Both the position numbers and the translations under genes were made by a program. From Clostridia bacterium (GTDB lineage Bacteria > Bacillota_E > RBS10-35 > JAJYVN01): a stretch of DNA of 12,304 nucleotides. The notes beneath the pieces were generated by a model. That model was not told the DNA's origin. It made no database searches and saw only the letters and a program-made list of their open reading frames with translations. How positions within the stretch are numbered: the stretch's first letter is position 1; each line of letters starts with the position of its first letter. Shown here in pieces: positions 3,713-10,861 of the stretch. The DNA lies in the NCBI GenBank assembly GCA_027335515.1, contig DAHWHT010000375.1, positions 1 to 12,304 on the forward strand. The letters run 5' to 3'.

Positions 3713-3973
3713 TCAGTGCAGTAGCGGCATCCCCTCGGACGGCATCGGCTGCCCCTCGTCCATATACTTACGGCGCGTCGATTCCCCCCCACGCAGATGG
3801 CGTTCCGCCTTATTGGTATCCAGCACCTTCTTGACGCGGGCGGCAAGGTCGCGGTTCAGCTTGGGCAGCCGCTCCGTGACGTCTTTGTGGACCGTCGACT
3901 TGCTCACTCCGAAAACCTTAGCCGTCTCGCGCACCGTCGACTGGGTGCGCGAGATGTAACGGCTCACCTCCAT
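3713..3973 (-). CDS. spoIIID: Sporulation transcriptional regulator SpoIIID, 3' piece of a split gene (residues 12-95)
   Basis: SpoIIID is a small DNA-binding protein acting in the mother cell under sigma-E. It activates and represses many genes and in B. subtilis supports sigK expression. This piece holds almost the whole protein: the helix-turn-helix AKVFGVSKSTVHKDVTERLP and the C-terminal signature NKAERHLRGGESTRRKY. Homology runs without gaps from VSRYISRTQSTV (codon 3965-3967) to the TGA at 3713. Upstream of that, the normal N-terminus (D-Y/H-I-x-x-R) is absent. The same frame reads GQRCDGTRLMEV instead, with an ATG at 3973 that lies on the crossover site. The missing N-terminus is at 9123-9154. 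As it stands this piece could at best be translated from ATG 3973 or TTG 4018, giving a protein with a wrong or missing first helix, and it lacks its promoter. Confidence 0.9.
   Translation of the reverse strand: MEVSRYISRTQSTVRETAKVFGVSKSTVHKDVTERLPKLNRDLAARVKKVLDTNKAERHLRGGESTRRKYMDEGQPMPSEGMPLLH
3969..3972. other. Proposed left attachment core (TCCA on +, TGGA on -)
   Basis: SpoIIID homology begins immediately after this point on the minus strand. The same four bases occur at 9123-9126, where homology in the 5' piece stops. Joining at the shared TGGA gives codons CGG-GTT-CTG-GAG-GTG-AGC and restores the frame. The core is short, as is usual for large serine recombinases, which cross over at a dinucleotide. 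Confidence 0.65.
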
Positions 3974-4088
3974 GAGCCGGGTGCCGTCACAACGCTGGCC
4001 CCGCGGAGCCCGCCGCAACCGGGCCTCACCGCAGGTCGCCACATGGCCGGCACACCGACGGGCACCTCGGGCCGGGTACGGCAAACCA

Positions 4089-4107
4089 CCGGCACGGCGT
4101 GCGCCGG
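4089..4107. repeat. Short imperfect palindrome between the recombinase gene and the left core
   Basis: CCGGCACGGCGTGCGCCGG has 5-bp GC arms (CCGGC/GCCGG) around a nine-base centre. It lies 46 bases past the recombinase stop, inside the 180-base end of the element. It could be a hairpin ending the recombinase transcript or a recombinase-binding feature. There is no T-tract, so I do not call it a terminator. Confidence 0.3.
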
Positions 4108-4153
4108 CGGGAGCGTGCAACGCCCGTCGGTCGGCCGGGCGGCCCAAAGACGG

Positions 4154-5593
4154 TCAGGGCTCCTGCACCGCAAGGCGGACGTGAACGGCGCCCGCCGGGG
4201 ACACACACACGCGCACCCCGAGGGCGGCCAACACACAGCGTCGAATCTCGATGTCCTCCAGCCGGTGCGCGTCGGCAAGCATGCGGCAAACCACCGCCTC
4301 GCCGCCCCCGGCCGCCTGCGGCGTCGCGGCCTGAACCTGAGCCGCCAGCGTCTCGTGGCGATGGTCCAGAATCCGCGCTTCGGCGTCCACCTCGCGCTGC
4401 TGTGCGACCAACGCCTCGTCACCGATCACCCCGCGGCGAAAGGCACGTACCACCCGTTCCCGCTCCTCGCGCAGACGCTCGCGGTCGCGCTCGATCGTCC
4501 GCAACTGGCCCTCCAGTTCCGCCCGCCGCTGGGTGTCGCCGCCCGCCACGGCGCAGACCGCGCGCACGGCCTCGGCGTCGGTGATGCAGGCAAAGACGTG
4601 CTGCCAGACCTGGGTATCCAAGAGATCGCTGCGCCAATAGCGGTTGGGACAACGATCCGGTCCCCGCTGGGGTTTGGCCCGCGCCGGGCACCCGTAGTAC
4701 GTGGTGACCCCTTGGCGGGTGGGCCGGCCGTAGCCGCCGCACATGGAGCGGCCGCAGGCGGCACAGCGCAGAAGTCCGGTGAGCAGATAGGGGTGCGTCG
4801 GCCGCCCGCTTGGCCGCGTCCGGCGCGCCGCGCGGGCAGACTGAACCCGCTCGAACTGCTCGGGCGTCACCAGCACCGGGACGGGTACCGACCCGATGCC
4901 GCCCATTTGGGGCATGCGCCCCAGGTAGGTGGGGTTGCGCAAGATGCCGGCGACACTGCTCGGGCTCCAACACCCCCCGAACCGGGCGGGCACGTGGTCC
5001 ACGTTGAGGCGGCGCGCCAGTTCCGAGGTGCCGGCCTCGGCCGCCCATTCGAACAGCAGGCGCACCACCTGCGCCTCGCGCGGCTCCACCTCCCACTTTT
5101 TGGCCGTGCGGTCGAGGCGATAACCGTAGATGCAGGTGCCGGCCGATACCTGGTTCGCGCGCGCCCTGGCCTGTTTGCCGGAGTACAGGCGCTGCTTGAT
5201 GCGGTGCGCCTCAAACTCGCTGATGGCCCCGCGCACCGTAAACAGGAGGCGGCCGTCGGGCGAGAGGTCCGTCGCGAAGTTGACGAACTCAACCGCAACC
5301 CCGGCCCCCCGCAGCTCGTCCACCAAGAGCAAGAGGTGCGCGGCGTTGCGCGACAACCGATCCGGGTCGTAGGCAATCAGACGGGCAAGCGCCCCGCGTC
5401 GGGCCGCAGCGAGGATCGCCTGCAGCTGGGGTCGCTCCAGGGTGGTGCCACTCAGCGCGGCGTCGATGTGGAGGCACGCCTCTTCCCCCGGCGCCAACCG
5501 CTGGCGGCAAACGCGCACCTGCTCGTCCAAACTGGTGCCGTGTTCGGCCTGCTCGTCCGTGCTGACCCGCGCATAAATCGCGGTCTGTCCCAT
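4154..5593 (-). CDS. Large serine recombinase, SpoIVCA-like; the element's integrase/excisionase
   Basis: This 479-residue site-specific recombinase should cut and rejoin the ends of the spoIIID element. The start is ATG 5591-5593 with AGGGGTGG five bases upstream. The N-terminal resolvase domain (about 1-145) has IYARVSTDEQ with nucleophile Ser11, and YDPDRLSR with the arginine cluster at R79 and R82. SPDGRLLFTVRGAISEFE closely resembles the SpoIVCA stretch as I recall it. A recombinase domain (about 155-260, NPTYLGR near 221) follows. Next come a zinc ribbon with Cys277, Cys280, Cys302 and Cys315, and a charged coiled coil (about 356-415). Length is close to SpoIVCA's 500. Its stop is 182 bp from the left core, the expected place. 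A 56-codon gene lies 11 bp upstream. No key residue is missing, so the enzyme looks functional. Confidence 0.95.
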   Translation of the reverse strand: MGQTAIYARVSTDEQAEHGTSLDEQVRVCRQRLAPGEEACLHIDAALSGTTLERPQLQAILAAARRGALARLIAYDPDRLSRNAAHLLLLVDELRGAGVAVEFVNFATDLSPDGRLLFTVRGAISEFEAHRIKQRLYSGKQARARANQVSAGTCIYGYRLDRTAKKWEVEPREAQVVRLLFEWAAEAGTSELARRLNVDHVPARFGGCWSPSSVAGILRNPTYLGRMPQMGGIGSVPVPVLVTPEQFERVQSARAARRTRPSGRPTHPYLLTGLLRCAACGRSMCGGYGRPTRQGVTTYYGCPARAKPQRGPDRCPNRYWRSDLLDTQVWQHVFACITDAEAVRAVCAVAGGDTQRRAELEGQLRTIERDRERLREERERVVRAFRRGVIGDEALVAQQREVDAEARILDHRHETLAAQVQAATPQAAGGGEAVVCRMLADAHRLEDIEIRRCVLAALGVRVCVSPAGAVHVRLAVQEP

Positions 5594-5604
5594 CGGCGCC
5601 ACCC

Positions 5605-5775
5605 CTAACGCCCCGCGGGCGGCCGCGGCCCACCGCGCGAAGCCTCCCCCGCGGCCACCTCCGCAAGTCGTTCCCGCAGCCGCCGCCCATACAGGGCCCG
5701 CAGACCCTGGATGGCCCGCACCTTGTCCGCAAGGGACGCCTGCACGACGACCTGGACTTCCGACGGTCGCGCCAT
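5605..5775 (-). CDS. Small 56-residue protein coupled to the recombinase; candidate recombination directionality factor
   Basis: The ATG at 5773-5775 is preceded by a strong ribosome site (GGGAGGGGAG, five bases away). The frame ends 11 bases before the recombinase start, so the two are almost certainly co-translated. The protein begins MARPSEVQVVVQAS, continues with a probable basic amphipathic helix (about residues 15-42, with LRALYGRRLRERLAEV), and ends in a Gly/Pro/Arg-rich tail. I recognise no family. Serine recombinases of this group need a small partner to switch from integration to excision; SprB of SP-beta, of similar size (58 residues), is one. The directionality role is inferred from size, charge and position only. 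An alternative is a small regulator of recombinase expression. Confidence 0.6.
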   Translation of the reverse strand: MARPSEVQVVVQASLADKVRAIQGLRALYGRRLRERLAEVAAGEASRGGPRPPAGR

Positions 5776-5844
5776 ACGTGCTCCCCTCCCGCTGCCTGTC
5801 CCGGCAGGGTATGCGCCCGAGGGCACCCGCAGGACCGACCGCGC

Positions 5845-6204
5845 TCATGGAGGAGGCACCCGACCGTCCGGTCCGGGCGGCGGCCAGACCGCCTCCAGCG
5901 CCTGGATCTCACGCCACAGGCGCCGCGCCCGCCGCGAGCGCACCTCAAGCGGTGCCTCCAACCCCACCCACGAAGCAAAGGGCGCCGACCCGTGGCGGCG
6001 CTCCTGGTCACTGAACACATACCGCACGTCGCGCCGGTTGCCGTCCGGGGTAACCGCATCGCCAACGGCCGCCCGCGCGGCCCACTGCCGGCCGACGCAT
6101 TCCCGAACCCACGGCGGAGCCGCCGCCAACCGCGCCCGGCATCGATCCGCATCCAGATCCAACGCGCCACGCAGGGCCGCCACAAGCTCCCCCTGGCGCC
6201 GCAC
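5845..6204 (-). CDS. Hypothetical protein, probably the 3' part of a frameshifted element gene
   Basis: A 119-codon minus-strand frame with the GC-rich third positions typical of real genes here. It starts at GTG 6202-6204 without a good ribosome site and contains motifs such as PPWVRECVGRQWAARAAVG and DVRYVFSDQERRHG, which I cannot assign. It ends 69 bases before the 56-codon gene and is probably in the recombinase operon. Coding character continues upstream of the GTG in another frame (6205-6532). In the present frame a TGA about nine codons above the GTG blocks translation. I therefore think this is the tail of a longer protein broken by one indel near 6205-6230, rather than a complete gene. 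Confidence 0.5.
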   Translation of the reverse strand: MRRQGELVAALRGALDLDADRCRARLAAAPPWVRECVGRQWAARAAVGDAVTPDGNRRDVRYVFSDQERRHGSAPFASWVGLEAPLEVRSRRARRLWREIQALEAVWPPPGPDGRVPPP

Positions 6205-6532
6205 CGCCGCAACGCGTTCGGACGCGGGTCAGGATCCGGGCGTACGAATGGTCTCGGGCTCCCCAAGCGGCCAGAGCCCATCCCAGCGTCGCGCACCCGA
6301 ACGCGGCCAGCCAGGCGGCGGCCTGCGTCGCGTGACCGCTGGACCGCGCGGCCACCCACCCGAGCCACGCCCGCCACCGCGCCTCCAACGCCCGCCGCGT
6401 GCGATCGGCCACCACGGTCGGCAGGAAACGGGCCGCCGTCAGCCCCTCGGCCAAGCCGGAGGCCAGTTGCCCCCCGCGGCCCGCCCCGGCCGCCAAAGGC
6501 CTCGTATAAAGGGTGCGGCGGACAGACCACAC
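6205..6532 (-). pseudogene. Upstream, out-of-frame coding part of the same unknown element gene
   Basis: From a possible GTG at 6530-6532 a frame reads VWSVRRTLYTRPLAAG and later ARFLPTVVADRTRRALEARW. It then has a hydrophobic stretch (AAWLAAFGCATLGWALAAW) and ends in coding-like sequence at YARILTRV, about 6225. Beyond that it runs out of frame over the next gene to a stop at 6008. A one-base insertion or two-base loss would join it to the 5845-6204 frame. No ribosome site was found, and function is unknown. The start is a guess. Confidence 0.3.
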
Positions 6533-6705
6533 GCAGGTGGGTCCCGGGGGCTGCTGGCCACGAAGGCCCGCGCCGCTCGTCGGAGGCGAGTGAGCGCTCG
6601 AAAAGAGTGCCGGCGGGGCTGGGTCGGGACACGGGACAGGCCCCCGGCGCCCGAGCACTCAGTCCCCAACCCCGGGCGTCCGCCAGACGTGAGGGGGATG
6701 CCCAG

Positions 6706-7047
6706 ATGGTCACACGACGATGGGATCGGCGCCTGACCGTGCGGCTGAGCCAGACGGAGTGGGAACCCTTCGAAGAGGCGCGGCGGGCCATTCACGCCCG
6801 CAGGGTGGTCCGCGGCTCTCCTACCAAGGCGGACACCATCGGCCTGCTCGCGGCGACGCTGTGTTACCGAGCGGGCCAGGGCCCGGCCCTCACCCCCGCG
6901 CGCCTCGGATCGCTCACATCGTTCCGCGGGGCGAACCGCCCCGTCCCAATCCAGGGCGTCCTGCGCGACGCGTGTGCCGTTGCGCCACCATCGTTCGCGG
7001 CCCTGGGTCCTGAATTCCTTCCTCCCCCAGCCGTACCCAGCCGTTGA
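6706..7047 (+). CDS. Small putative ribbon-helix-helix DNA-binding protein
   Basis: This is the only gene on the plus strand within the element, 113 residues from ATG 6706 with GAGGGGG about eight bases upstream. The N-terminal third reads RRLTVRLSQTEWEPFEEAR, a basic strand and helix. It is followed by GSPTKADTIGLLAA, which resembles the second helix of CopG/Arc-type ribbon-helix-helix proteins. The C-terminal half is rich in Pro, Ala and Arg and may be disordered. It is transcribed away from the recombinase operon, so a role in controlling that operon is possible but inferred. The family call rests on pattern resemblance only, and the C-terminal half may not be conserved. Confidence 0.5.
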   Translation: MVTRRWDRRLTVRLSQTEWEPFEEARRAIHARRVVRGSPTKADTIGLLAATLCYRAGQGPALTPARLGSLTSFRGANRPVPIQGVLRDACAVAPPSFAALGPEFLPPPAVPSR

Positions 7048-7204
7048 TGGCGTGCATGCCCGGACGGCCGTGATCGTTCGCTCTCGGACGCGCGGGTATG
7101 GGGCCGCGGTCCACTTGCGCCCACCGGTGAAAACGGCGGCGAACCGCGCGCCGGCATCTCCAGGTCCTGGGTCCCGCAACGCCGCGGGCGGTGTCTCCCG
7201 GTGG

Positions 7205-8041
7205 TCAGACGCCCGCAAGCCACGCCTCGGCATCTCCCGCCGCATCATGGGTCGCGAGTTCTTCCAGGAACGAAAAGAAGTTGTGGTGCGGCTCGTAGCC
7301 CAGGCACTCCCGGGTCGCGACCGGGTCGGGTCGGCCGATGCGATCGGGCAGAGTCAGGTTGTGGCGCCGCACCAGATCCGCCGCACCCGGGCGGTGGCGT
7401 TCCAGCACCGCCAACGGGTCCCGCGCCCAGGCGGCCACGTCCTCAACGGTGAACGGGTCGTGGCGCAGGACCGGCAACGCCTCAAAGGTCGCCTCGGTGT
7501 TCTCCACCGCCAGCGCCGCCGCGGCAATGACATCCCTGCGGTCCACTCCACCGCGCAGCAGCCGTTCCCCATACCGCCTGCGGTTCGGATACGGCGTGAA
7601 ATCCGCCGGGCGCAGGAGAATGCAGGAAATGCCGGCCGTGCGGTGATAGAAGGCGCACAGTTCCTCACCGATCACCTTGCTGAAGCCGTAGATGTTGTTG
7701 CGATCGTGCACCGACATGCTGGAAATCCACACGACCCGGCGCACACCATGGGCGAGTGCGGATTGAAACACGTTGAACGTGCCATCGACGTTCAGATCCC
7801 AAAAGGCATCCTGACCGCGGGACCGCAGGTGGATGCCGTGCCAGGCCGGCGTGTGCACGACGACATCCATCCCCTCCGCCAGGGCCAGGACCTCCTCGCG
7901 CCGCCGCACGTCGGCCTGGATGAACTCCGCCGCCGTTTCCACCGGATTCAGGTCCGACAGCCGCAGGGCATGGCGCGCAGCGAGGCTGGCGGCAAGCCCG
8001 GAACCGAGGCTGCCGCCAGCCCCCGTGATCAACACCTTCAC
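7205..8041 (-). CDS. NAD-dependent epimerase/dehydratase (extended SDR)
   Basis: A 278-residue extended short-chain dehydrogenase starting at GTG 8039-8041. The Rossmann motif ITGAGGSLGSGL lies at residues 5-16. Asp30 in LRLSDLN would bind the ribose of NAD. ISSMSVHDRNNIYGFSK supplies the catalytic Ser, Tyr118 and Lys122 (YxxxK). Such enzymes epimerise, dehydrate or oxidise sugars or sugar nucleotides. The short length and the N-terminal pattern recall uronate dehydrogenase-type members, but the substrate cannot be read from sequence. It lies 140 bp downstream of the hydroxypyruvate-isomerase-like gene on the same strand, and the pair suggests a small sugar or sugar-acid catabolic unit carried by the element. 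The ribosome site is weak, so the start is moderately certain. Confidence 0.88.
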   Translation of the reverse strand: MKVLITGAGGSLGSGLAASLAARHALRLSDLNPVETAAEFIQADVRRREEVLALAEGMDVVVHTPAWHGIHLRSRGQDAFWDLNVDGTFNVFQSALAHGVRRVVWISSMSVHDRNNIYGFSKVIGEELCAFYHRTAGISCILLRPADFTPYPNRRRYGERLLRGGVDRRDVIAAAALAVENTEATFEALPVLRHDPFTVEDVAAWARDPLAVLERHRPGAADLVRRHNLTLPDRIGRPDPVATRECLGYEPHHNFFSFLEELATHDAAGDAEAWLAGV

Positions 8042-8140
8042 TGCCGATCGGCGCGCCCGCCAGCCCGCGGGCGGCGCGCGCCCTACCTCCCCTGCTCGAC
8101 CGACTGAGGCGCCCCCGTGAGCGCCGCGGGAGCCCCTGAG

Positions 8141-8162
8141 GCCCACCGACCCGGGGGTGGGC
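8141..8162. repeat. GC-rich inverted repeat (7-bp perfect stem) between the two sugar genes
   Basis: GCCCACC (8141-8147) and GGTGGGC (8156-8162) pair perfectly around an eight-base loop. The hairpin would form about 20 bases after the stop of the isomerase-like gene in its transcript. No T-tract follows on either strand. It may be a weak terminator or an mRNA-stabilising hairpin that lowers expression of the epimerase. Confidence 0.45.
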
Positions 8163-8181
8163 GCAAGCGCGGCGGGGGCGG

Positions 8182-8970
8182 TCAGGTGGGATCGGCAAAG
8201 GCCGCGCGCACCTCGCGCAACGAGGCCTCCGGGTCGATGGACGGCCCGTATTCCAACCCGACGAATCCGCGGTATCCGGTGGCGGCGATGGTTGCCAGCA
8301 CCGGCCGGAAATCCACCTCGCCGCCCGTCGGCTCATGGCGTCCGGGGACCCCGGCGATGTGGTAGTAGCCGATCAGCGCATGGTGGGCGCGCACGACGGC
8401 ATCAAGATCGTCCCCCATGACCCGCATGTGGTACAGGTCATACAGCACCCTGACGCTGGGTGACCCCACGGCCTCCACGACCGCAAAGGCCTTGGCCGAG
8501 GTGTCACACCAGCAGTTGCGATGGTCGACCAGGCTGTTGAGCGGCTCAAGCAGCGCGGTGATCCCCGCGGCCTCCAGTTGCGGCACCACCGTGCGCAGGG
8601 AGGCGACGACCGCCGCGTGGTGCTGGGCCTCCGACCATCCGGCCACCCGGTCGCCGGGCACCATGACCAGATTCGAACAGCGCACGGCGCGCGCGGCGCC
8701 GATCGCCGCGGCCACATCGGCCGCAAGCTGCGCGTGGTCCTGGGGCTCGATCAGGGCGGGCCGGCCGTGGCCGGGCGCTCCACCCGTCGTTCCCCCCATG
8801 CAGGTCACTGATAGCCCTGTTTCCGCCTGCAGTTGAGCTGCCTGCGCCATGTCCTTGCCCCGCCACACAAACTCGCAGGCGGCAAACCCGAGGGCCTTGC
8901 TGATCCGCCAGCGCTCGGGAAAGGGACGATCCCGCAAATGGGTCTCCAGATGCACCGCCAAACCCGGCAC
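8182..8970 (-). CDS. Hydroxypyruvate isomerase-like sugar isomerase (AP endonuclease 2-family TIM barrel)
   Basis: A 262-residue TIM-barrel protein from GTG 8968-8970, which has GGAGG seven bases upstream. It has the metal and catalytic residues of the hydroxypyruvate isomerase/tagatose epimerase superfamily: Glu142 (LLEPLN), Asp178 (LYDLYH), His204 (YYHIAG), with RHEPTGGEVDF after it, and Glu240 (GLEYGPS). These fall at almost the same positions as in E. coli Hyi. The likely reaction is isomerisation or epimerisation of a small keto-sugar or hydroxypyruvate in the cytoplasm. It is the element gene nearest the right end, 152 bp from the core. Any transcript from the spoIIID promoter would therefore enter it while the element is in place. 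Family firm, substrate unknown. Confidence 0.85.
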   Translation of the reverse strand: MPGLAVHLETHLRDRPFPERWRISKALGFAACEFVWRGKDMAQAAQLQAETGLSVTCMGGTTGGAPGHGRPALIEPQDHAQLAADVAAAIGAARAVRCSNLVMVPGDRVAGWSEAQHHAAVVASLRTVVPQLEAAGITALLEPLNSLVDHRNCWCDTSAKAFAVVEAVGSPSVRVLYDLYHMRVMGDDLDAVVRAHHALIGYYHIAGVPGRHEPTGGEVDFRPVLATIAATGYRGFVGLEYGPSIDPEASLREVRAAFADPT

Positions 8971-9122
8971 GCGTATACCTCCAACCGCCCCACCGTTCAG
9001 AGCCCGCTTTCCGCATCCCGCAGTTGGAGTCCTGCCCTGCCGCGGAGGGGGATCGCGGCCGCCACGCCCGACCAGACCCCGCAAACGGCCGCCGGCGGCG
9101 TTGTGGCCGCGAAGGACTCCTT

Positions 9123-9126
9123 TCCA
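9123..9126. other. Proposed right attachment core (TCCA on +, TGGA on -)
   Basis: Here the 5' piece of spoIIID ends: codons CGG-GTT-CTG-GAA are followed by AGG-AGT-CCT, which are not SpoIIID-like. The four bases match those at 3969-3972 in direct orientation. Confidence 0.65.
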
Positions 9127-9154
9127 GAACCCGCTTCCAGATATGGTCCTTCAC
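9123..9154 (-). CDS. spoIIID: SpoIIID, 5' piece of a split gene (residues 1-11)
   Basis: Eleven codons from GTG 9152-9154 encode VKDHIWKRVLE, which aligns without a gap to the known SpoIIID N-terminus (B. subtilis MHDYIKERTIK). The next expected residues, an I/V-x-x-Y-I pattern, are found as VSRYI at the start of the 3' piece. The joined protein would be 95 residues against 93 in B. subtilis. A GGGGGG stretch seven bases upstream could bind the ribosome, the same type of site as flhO and flhP use. Past the core, the frame runs on through element DNA without SpoIIID similarity. A CATA at 9195-9198 (minus) sits at a plausible -10 distance for sigma-E, but I see no convincing -35. Confidence 0.85.
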
Positions 9155-9640
9155 GGGCTCGCCCCCCGTCCCTCCGAAACGTCTAGCCAATCGATATGTA
9201 CGGCCCCAAGACGGCAGACCCTCTCCAACCGCACCGTGACCCTCCCGGGGCGATCCACGTGAACCGGCGCACGACCCGGACGGAGCGACCGCGCAGATCT
9301 CGCCTGCTGCTTATGAACGCCACTATCTTCCACCATGCCCACTGCACGTCCCATTCCGCTATTGCAGTCGCGCAAGCGCCACGAAACCTCACCAGCGGCG
9401 CGAAACGGCTGTTTATCTCATCCATACTCGTCGTGACGGCTGCATGGACACACTTACGACCTTTGAGGACGGGAGTAAGCTCGTGTAACGTAGGCACGCT
9501 GGCGCGCGCGTCTTGAGATGTAGCGTACAACTCACATACCACGTCTACTACATAACTCTACTTGTGTATCCCGGTGTATAAGGGATATACTTGCGATGCT
9601 TTCTTGACAGACCGCGGTCGAACGCGTTGCTGAGCTCGAA
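9155..9640. promoter_or_regulatory. Divergent intergenic region between the spoIIID 5' piece and the ectB remnant
   Basis: Some 485 bases without a gene I can support. Base composition is clearly less GC-rich than the rest, especially 9420-9600. It should hold the spoIIID promoter (minus) and the ectB promoter (plus). No ectA-like acetyltransferase sequence is visible here, although ectA normally precedes ectB. Confidence 0.5.
9562..9591 (+). promoter_or_regulatory. Candidate vegetative-type promoter for ectB with an overlapping inverted repeat
   Basis: TTGTGT (9562-9567) and TATACT (9586-9591) are 18 bp apart and resemble sigma-A -35 and -10 elements. They lie 50 bp upstream of the ectB start. 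Within the spacer, TATCCC (9567-9572) and GGGATA (9582-9587) form a perfect 6-bp inverted repeat, a possible operator. It lies in the AT-richest stretch of the window. Confidence 0.45.

Positions 9641-10861
<1,221 letters not shown>

Follow-up and report, generated by a model that had tools for sequence, protein, structure and literature searches.

The elements skin, gin, and SP-beta are excised by serine recombinases, which rejoins the mother-cell genes that they interrupt (PMC5595907, PMC6957869, PMC5025042). In the portions of the literature on such elements available to us, spoIIID is not among the interrupted genes named. The skin element splits sigK and is associated with SpoIVCA and Skr in Bacillus subtilis and with CD1231 and CD1234 in Clostridioides difficile; in B. 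subtilis, skr and the 5' end of spoIVCA overlap (PMC6957869). Excision of skin in both species depends on SpoIIID (PMC5025042), which is needed for spoIVCA (PMC5025042, PMC517825) and likewise for CD1234 (PMC5025042). The gin element, which some strains of B. cereus and B. toyonensis carry, is a nonphage element (GirC and GirX) that splits the small mother-cell regulator gene gerE; its attP is an inverted repeat about a central dinucleotide, and a directionality factor is needed for its recombination (PMC5595907). Sporulation genes are also split by vfbin (spoVFB), the spoVR element, SP-beta (spsM), and yin (yabG), each with a recombination unit on the element (PMC6957869, PMC10747680), and the fdxN element of Anabaena (XisF) is excised developmentally in a terminal cell type (PMC6957869).

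The window analyzed here (i.e., the whole stretch of 12,304 nucleotides) holds a spoIIID gene that is split by an element of this general kind. As in skin, a serine recombinase lies within a split mother-cell regulator gene, and a small open reading frame (ORF) abutting the recombinase resembles the skr/spoIVCA overlap. Unlike sigK, the target gene stands one step higher, and the SpoIIID requirement of spoIVCA and CD1234 cannot hold for an element in spoIIID itself. The skin element is 48 kb in B. subtilis (PMC517825), whereas spoIIID elements are 1.7 to 7.5 kb, and the element in the window lacks phage structural families. The predicted attP is, as in gin, an inverted repeat about a dinucleotide; gin differs in its size (28.6 kb), its three recombinases, and its target, which belongs to the sigma-K stage. 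By contrast, vfbin, SP-beta, and yin are prophages or prophage-like, and neither they nor the spoVR element target the regulator SpoIIID. The XisF model matches the window recombinase with 91 bits, below its cutoff of 375, but the fdxN element serves heterocyst nitrogen fixation rather than sporulation.

The split gene and the ends of the element

The following features, all on the minus strand, define the interruption.

9122-9154, minus: spoIIID 5' piece, codons 1 to 11 (VKDHIWKRVLE, GTG start), from translation and TIGR02844
3713-3967, minus: spoIIID 3' piece (VSRYIS...LLH), codons 12 to 95 and stop
3969-9122, minus: intervening element, 5,154 bp if crossover is at GA
9123-9124, minus: core dinucleotide GA of attL, which forms positions 1 and 2 of codon 11
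3969-3970, minus: attR core dinucleotide GA, in the same orientation as attL
9093-9122, minus: predicted attP arm adjoining attL, with CACAAC 17 nt from the core
3971-4000, minus: predicted attP arm adjoining attR, with GTTGTG 17 nt from the core

When joined, the two pieces give 95 codons in frame. The 3' piece alone matched the SpoIIID model TIGR02844 (cutoff, 111.5 bits) with 118.6 bits over model positions 12 to 79, and the joined protein matched it with 139.2 bits over positions 1 to 79 of 80 in one gap-free stretch. B. subtilis SpoIIID (PDB 2L0K) also aligned with the joined protein without gaps over residues 2 to 82. Both alignments agree with the first-pass annotation, which had proposed that the two pieces make a gap-free protein of 95 residues. 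The interruption lies inside codon 11, within the family model; upstream of spoIIID in the window is a broken aminotransferase gene.

The att sites were compared among the 10 elements with both ends. Near the junction, no dinucleotide other than GA was shared by both ends in every one of the 10, and codon 11 read across the GA join was Glu in every case, as in intact relatives; read from attL alone, it was Asp in 6 of the 10. Serine-integrase attP sites are inverted repeats about the core. In the predicted attP of the window, 16 of 26 arm positions were complementary (shuffle P = 0.0015), and the GA core was the best of 25 registers. In all 10 elements it ranked first of the 25 registers, alone or jointly (with another register in G047 and G050), with a summed score of 136 versus 42 to 84 at other registers; the symmetry of G073 was weak and not significant by shuffling (P = 0.10). 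The crossover point likely lies in codon 11, at its GA (9124-9123 and 3970-3969), which gives an element size of 5,154 bp, close to the 5.15 kb first estimated.

Recombinase, adjoining ORF, and cargo

The element carries the following features on the minus strand; the last one lies upstream of spoIIID.

4154-5593, minus: large serine recombinase, 479 amino acids (Pfam Resolvase, Recombinase, Zn_ribbon_recom)
5605-5775, minus: 56-codon ORF, candidate recombination directionality factor, ending 11 bases before the recombinase
5810-5835, minus: possible promoter of sigma-E type (GTCC-N18-CATA) for the small ORF and recombinase
5845-6658, minus: cargo remnant, the broken counterpart of a 347-amino-acid ORF intact in G075
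7205-8041, minus: NAD-dependent epimerase family protein (Pfam PF01370), also in the G075 element (82%)
8182-8973, minus: hydroxypyruvate-isomerase-like TIM-barrel protein (TIGR03234, PF01261), also in G075 (82%)
9195-9220, minus: possible sigma-E-type promoter of spoIIID (GGTCTGCC-N14-CATA)

The recombinase reported between the two pieces is indeed intact: its ORF is unbroken, and its likeness to SpoIVCA was assessed at the level of the large-serine-recombinase class, in which its catalytic resolvase, Recombinase, and zinc ribbon domains place it. Among relatives within spoIIID, omega for the recombinase was 0.11 to 0.24 (nine pairs).

The 56-codon ORF is alignable within the clade of the window and matched no named family in the libraries searched. 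By the same criteria, a short ORF was found in all 16 elements for which upstream sequence was available and also before 17 of 21 other recombinases. Its end fell within -25 to +30 of the recombinase start in 15 of 16 elements, compared with 15 of 21 other recombinases and 7% of random positions. Because of this control, the ORF is retained only as a candidate directionality factor, and the idea that it is special to spoIIID elements was ruled out.

Motifs resembling GTCC-N18-CATA, sought with a regular expression drawn after inspection (post hoc), occurred in six of seven elements outside the compact clade (i.e., all but G073) and in none of nine inside it. A promoter matrix trained on spoIIID promoters did less well than the regular expression, with weak matches upstream of 16 recombinases (P = 0.014 to 0.64), and this result speaks against the recombinase promoter. 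Upstream of spoIIID, GGTCTGCC-N14-CATA was in register in 13 of the 14 regions compared; in a 15th, that of G016, CATA was missing. In four of the compact elements, CATA is followed downstream by the string GGACAAG. Its interpretation as a SpoIIID box was dropped; no such string was present in the paper examined.

Cargo varies by lineage, with sugar enzymes in the window and in G075, its closest relative found, and ABC transporter genes in G073. The TIM-barrel protein scored 161.7 bits against TIGR03234, under the cutoff of 353. By eye, the cargo remnant consists of overlapping frames in the window, compared with one frame in G075. None of the six ORFs of the window element matched a phage structural family in PHROGs; the matches were to integration families (the recombinase), one enzyme family, and one unnamed family.

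Distribution of split spoIIID genes in the class

Among 154 genomes of the class, 127 had a SpoIIID match, and the same split was present in 14 of these; 2 more had a spoIIID N piece with a recombinase. Each of the 14 split genomes had a single SpoIIID match at an E value of 1e-8 (i.e., no second spoIIID). The empty site that the first-pass annotation had suggested seeking in close genomes is present in G072, with the same gene order (M23-spoIIID-flg-fabZ-aspAT), and the site is uninterrupted in other relatives as well; the uninterrupted sequence of an empty-site relative is VKDHIWKRVLEVSRY. By blastn, both flanks of the window fall on the empty site with a 12-base overlap; this placement and the recurrence of the split in 16 other genomes exclude chance. 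Judged from these genomes, the spoIIID split is a family of elements in one class and not a one-off.

The smallest (compact) elements are 1.7 to 2.2 kb. In one supported rpoB clade, all seven sampled genomes were split (G049 to G051, G053, G054, G056, and G057). The split or intact state changed at least four times on the rpoB tree, the bootstrap of which is not fully settled; the split is thus not simply inherited. In G075, sigK is split too, and spoIIID and sigK each have a recombinase beside one of their pieces. Matches to the recombinase and to neighbor genes on contigs of equal size (33,113; 88,028; 54,172; and 14,491) suggest further split loci and are not proof of them.

All 17 recombinases located in spoIIID form part of one clade (SH-aLRT, 99). 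No SpoIIID match (E value, 1e-3) was found in the flanks, of about 1.5 kb or less, of 13 located recombinases outside this clade. A phylum sample of 398 genomes yielded 9 further genomes with recombinases at 32 to 39% identity, and the flanks retrieved for these likewise held no SpoIIID match at 1e-3; the family thus seems restricted to this class. Viral contigs contained four distant recombinases.

SpoIVA and Spo0A were each over the cutoff in 13 of the 14 genomes queried (13 split genomes and G072), and the hosts thus look able to sporulate. The bacteria with split spoIIID are little studied and are predicted spore formers.

A possible excision mechanism and its alternatives

Several features that mark elements of the skin kind were found here: a split coding region, a recombinase on the element, a direct core repeat with an in-frame join, and an empty site. 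A skin-like element in spoIIID, as originally suggested, is the best reading; it is supported by the in-frame join, the empty site, the shared core and symmetric attP, purifying selection on the recombinase and on SpoIIID, and the 16 further split genomes, with no second spoIIID in the 14 that had a SpoIIID match. Its excision and its tie to sporulation are what we infer. The gene spoIIID is interrupted in codon 11, and we consider it highly probable that the recombinase removes the element from the mother-cell chromosome at an early stage of sporulation, rejoining the gene. The recombinase would recombine attL with attR and release a circle, with the abutting short ORF acting as a putative directionality factor. 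Expression of both would start in the mother cell, probably under sigma-E rather than SpoIIID; since no intact SpoIIID yet exists before excision, the trigger must be SpoIIID independent. The spore chromosome would keep the element, and the split gene would thereby be inherited. Excision would set the onset of the SpoIIID regulon.

The element might instead be static, with an N-terminally shortened SpoIIID made from an attR-side ATG or GTG and working without rejoining. The attR-side codon just before codon 11 is indeed a potential start, ATG or GTG, at 12 of the 15 loci (always ATG at the five from the clade of the window that show it), and in the window the longest match to the ribosome-binding consensus is four bases at this start versus three at the start of the N piece. 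Such a start is absent from G049 (ACG), G050 (GCG), and G047 (CTG, with GTG one codon further up), and VKDHIWKR is identical in all 12 N pieces found (located in relatives by a loose peptide pattern and in G073 by DNA similarity), although the N piece doubles as one half of the att site. Maintenance of the recombinase and of att symmetry, as well as an interruption inside the family model, likewise argues against a short form, which we regard as quite improbable. A dead insertion or an assembly artifact, with spoIIID of the window a pseudogene, would fit the other broken genes there (the aminotransferase gene and the cargo ORF). This reading is in the main refuted by the recurrent split, the single SpoIIID match, and purifying selection, and its probability is close to negligible: both pieces are conserved, and in none of the 16 other split genomes does the recombinase match have an internal stop.

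We also weighed an ordinary mobile element that favors the conserved spoIIID sequence and is excised randomly or during transfer, independently of development. The unlike cargo of different lineages would fit, as would the repeated changes of state on the species tree, according to which elements come and go. Omega for the SpoIIID C piece, at 0 to 0.05 in eight pairs among split lineages, indicates strong purifying selection, which is hardly expected of a gene rejoined by accident. The uniformly split clade of seven, in which the five measured elements are just 2.07 to 2.16 kb, also speaks against a purely mobile element, and we hold this explanation to be unlikely.

Under developmental excision, cells like those of G075 might run a two-lock sporulation program written in DNA, in which spoIIID and then sigK are freed. 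The first lock, on spoIIID, would be opened by sigma-E; SpoIIID would in turn permit both the second excision and the transcription of sigK, each step committing the genome of the mother cell only. We put this forward tentatively, as plausible but somewhat less than an even prospect.

A split spoIIID would amount to a DNA lock one level above skin, for which a SpoIIID-independent trigger is forced, and entry into the late mother-cell program would hinge on a recombination event. The compact cassettes are candidate site-specific serine integrases for which both att sites are predicted; if the reading is true, they would be, to our knowledge, the smallest developmental gene-splitting units, each a self-contained genetic switch. 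The lineage series, from the empty site through compact cassettes and cargo-bearing elements to two split genes, makes a comparative test possible, one that addresses why sporulation genes collect excisable elements.

Split spoIIID gene and its empty site

The spoIIID gene of the window lies in two pieces:

9154-9122, minus strand, N piece, first 11 codons of spoIIID (window sequence)
3967-3713, minus strand, C piece, codons 12-95 of spoIIID (window sequence)

In a profile search, TIGR02844 (cut-off, 111.5 bits) matched the C piece alone with 118.6 bits, from model position 12, and the joined protein with 139.2 bits in a single uninterrupted stretch (model positions 1 to 79 of 80), which bears out the proposal of the first-pass annotation that the gene is in two pieces. 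The solved B. subtilis SpoIIID (2L0K) aligned to the joined protein over residues 2-82. An M23 peptidase gene lies upstream; downstream are two genes resembling flgF/flgG, one resembling fabZ, and one for an aspartate aminotransferase, an arrangement resembling the B. subtilis order (spoIIQ-spoIIID-flagellar rod gene). Between the M23 gene and spoIIID is a frame-broken aminotransferase-like gene (9600-10861, plus strand), and a related piece occupies the same place in genome G075. At two inspected loci (L159 and L168) of the compact clade, a supported group of genomes with small elements, spoIIID is followed by an MreB/Mbl-like gene, the B. subtilis arrangement, instead of the window's flagellar rod genes.

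The empty site that the annotation had suggested seeking in relatives was found in genome G072, where spoIIID is unbroken (85% identity to the joined protein) and has the same neighbors. Both window flanks meet there in blastn alignments, the left flank extending to base 946 of the G072 locus and the right flank starting from base 935.

Occurrence and history of the split

Among the best 80 of 551 relatives whose contigs were compared with the joined protein, all 80 were unsplit (matches from residue 1 or 5), and the nearest of these (L001) led to a class of 154 genomes. Sixteen of the 154 (G071, G073-G076, and G047-G057) had a recombinase match of 42 to 80% identity over most of its contig-held length; matches in the remaining genomes reached at most 45%, over the first half only. 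One or both spoIIID pieces adjoin the recombinase in all 16. SpoIIID was matched once per genome in 127 of the 154, starting at residue 5-9 in 14 genomes (all among the 16) and at residue 1-4 in the other 113. In G048 and G074, the remaining two of the 16, the contig carries the N piece and the recombinase and stops before the C piece, with no SpoIIID match elsewhere in either genome. In a phylum sample of 398 genomes, a recombinase of >40% identity at an E value of 1e-60 was found in G049 alone, a known case. Contigs end inside or near the element in 8 of the 16 split genomes (G076, G074, G071, G049, G055, G048, G051, and G052). A mixture of excised and integrated forms could be the cause, but G048, G052, and G055 are broken in rpoB as well.

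In a tree of 95 recombinases built by a quick method, all 17 recombinases located in spoIIID fell within one 64-row clade (SH-aLRT, 99), whose other 47 rows are without known context, several being copies of located ones. Thirteen located recombinases outside the clade had no SpoIIID match at an E value of 1e-3 in the flanking sequence retrieved. An rpoB tree was built for 40 genomes of the class; it omitted G048, G052, and G055, whose rpoB is partial, and so covered 13 of the 16 split genomes. Split genomes formed two groups on it. One, with 100/99 support for its six members, consists of G071, G073-G076, and, nested among them, intact G072; the other comprises the seven sampled members of G049-G057 (100/100). 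G047 was placed near intact G061 (95/70). The split or intact state changed at least 4 times on this tree, versus 11 times with shuffled labels. Together, the trees point to a single clade of recombinases tied to spoIIID, with either more than one gain or repeated loss; the intact site of G072 likely represents a precise loss.

The recombinase showed omega values of 0.11 to 0.24 in nine pairs (dS up to 1.4). For the SpoIIID C piece, omega was 0 to 0.05 in eight pairs of split genomes, compared with 0.085 to 0.11 in two intact pairs and 0.02 in one mixed pair; these low values in split genomes indicate that SpoIIID is still maintained there as a working protein.

Predicted recombination site and element content

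Seventeen loci were compared, one from the window and one from each of 16 genomes: 12 yielded the N piece, 15 the C-side junction, and 10 both ends. The N piece read VKDHIWKR in 12 of 12, which was partly expected, since it was located by a loose pattern or DNA similarity. Because it doubles as half of an att site, its conservation is by itself no proof of a protein role. Within 15 positions of the junction, GA, which opens codon 11, was the sole adjacent-base pair agreeing at both ends of all 10 elements; three single positions also agreed. Joining at GA gives Glu at codon 11 in all 10 elements, the residue also present in the three intact relatives examined, although attL (the element end carrying the N piece) alone gives Asp in six. 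Since the core is in direct orientation at both ends, recombination would delete, not invert, the element. In G047 (L158), the recombinase is opposite to spoIIID, unlike at the other loci compared, and a 9-base stretch, GTGCTGGAA, is common to both element ends.

When the ends of the 10 elements were joined at GA, the predicted attP was an inverted repeat centered on the core, the layout described for serine recombinase attP (PMC5595907). The window attP has GTTGTG and CACAAC, each 17 bases from the core, and 16 of 26 positions complementary (shuffle P = 0.0015); nine of the 10 elements gave P values of 0 to 0.03, and G073 gave 0.10. When the center was slid up to 12 bases either way, none of the 24 other centers scored above the GA core in any of the 10 elements, with a tie in G047 and in G050; the summed score was 136 at the core versus 42 to 84 elsewhere.

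Element lengths, beginning one base past the attL GA and ending with the attR GA
Window: 5,154 bp
G075: 4,889 bp
G073: 7,450 bp
G047: 1,747 bp
G053: 2,101 bp
G057: 2,069 bp
G054: 2,073 bp
G050: 2,075 bp
G056: 2,157 bp

The window and G075 elements share a hydroxypyruvate-isomerase-like gene and an epimerase gene, whose versions in the two are 82% identical; a 347-aa cargo ORF, with no match in Pfam, is intact in G075 and broken in the window. The G073 cargo includes a MacB-like ABC ATPase and permease. A comparison of six ORFs of the window element with PHROGs returned integration families (for the recombinase), an epimerase, and one unnamed family, with no phage structural families among them.

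A small ORF (30 to about 65 codons), sought by criteria that included a G-rich ribosome site, precedes the recombinase at all 16 loci with upstream sequence (G052 is cut), ending within 20 bases of its start in 15 and 122 bases before it in G073. Under identical criteria, short ORFs ending at -25 to +30 occurred at 15 of 16 spoIIID loci and, in the controls, beside 15 of 21 recombinases from elsewhere and at 7% of 4,000 random positions, so they are common beside such recombinases and nothing peculiar to spoIIID. The ORF is alignable within the window's clade (seven invariant columns) and has two database relatives; omega was computable in seven of nine pairs (30 to 59 codons) and ranged from 0 to 0.56, a weaker signal than for the recombinase. 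The ORF is a candidate directionality factor, because proteins of this kind are small and the skr gene of B. subtilis overlaps the beginning of spoIVCA (PMC6957869).

Hosts, sigK, and regulation

Of 14 genomes queried (13 split ones and G072), 13 had SpoIVA and 13 had Spo0A over the cut-off. A one-piece sigK exceeded the TIGR02846 cut-off in G076, G047, G050, and G054 and fell just or somewhat under it in G071 and G074. In G075 and G072, sigK is divided into two pieces, one covering about residues 2-112 and the other about 109-225, which lie on different contigs; one of the pieces adjoins a serine recombinase:

G075, contigs C79:410-751 and C34:2423-2767, split sigK (loci L222 and L223)
G072, split sigK (loci L225 and L226)

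Thus, spoIIID and sigK are both split in G075, the closest relative found. A sigK C part adjoins a recombinase in G073 (L224), and in G049 and G051 (L231 and L232) a serine recombinase comes after an N part about 65 residues long; the break point in these genomes is at about residue 112 or 65. Extra sigK 3' fragments, several starting near residue 104-108, occur beside or away from full sigK in G050 (contigs C73, C28, and C9; L233) and G054 (contig C11; L234), perhaps as stacked elements, each bringing a new 3' end.

Sporulation genes described as interrupted include sigK, spoVFB (also printed spoIVFB), spoVR, spsM, gerE, and yabG (PMC6957869, PMC5595907, PMC10747680). Among the titles listed in a literature search of titles and abstract openings, none concerned an element in spoIIID; the search covered a minority of subscription papers and no bioRxiv preprints, and the absence of such an element from print is not proven.

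Upstream of spoIIID, a [G/C]G[T/C][A/C]T-N17-CATA-like motif was found in 13 of 14 regions; a 15th, from G016, is without CATA. A looser G[T/C][A/C][T/C]-N16-19-CATA preceded the recombinase in six of seven elements outside the compact clade, versus 2.6% of random windows, and in none of nine within it. All nine compact-clade elements, which are related, have CATA at -126 to -130; among random windows, 16% contain any CATA. A matrix derived from spoIIID promoters yielded P values of only 0.014 to 0.64 upstream of recombinases. A mother-cell sigma factor common to spoIIID and the recombinase is plausible. A recombinase that frees spoIIID could not depend on SpoIIID for its own switch-on. The SpoIIID-dependent transcription described for spoIVCA of the B. 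subtilis skin element and for the directionality factor gene CD1234 of its C. difficile counterpart (PMC5025042, PMC517825) would therefore be impossible for an element in spoIIID.
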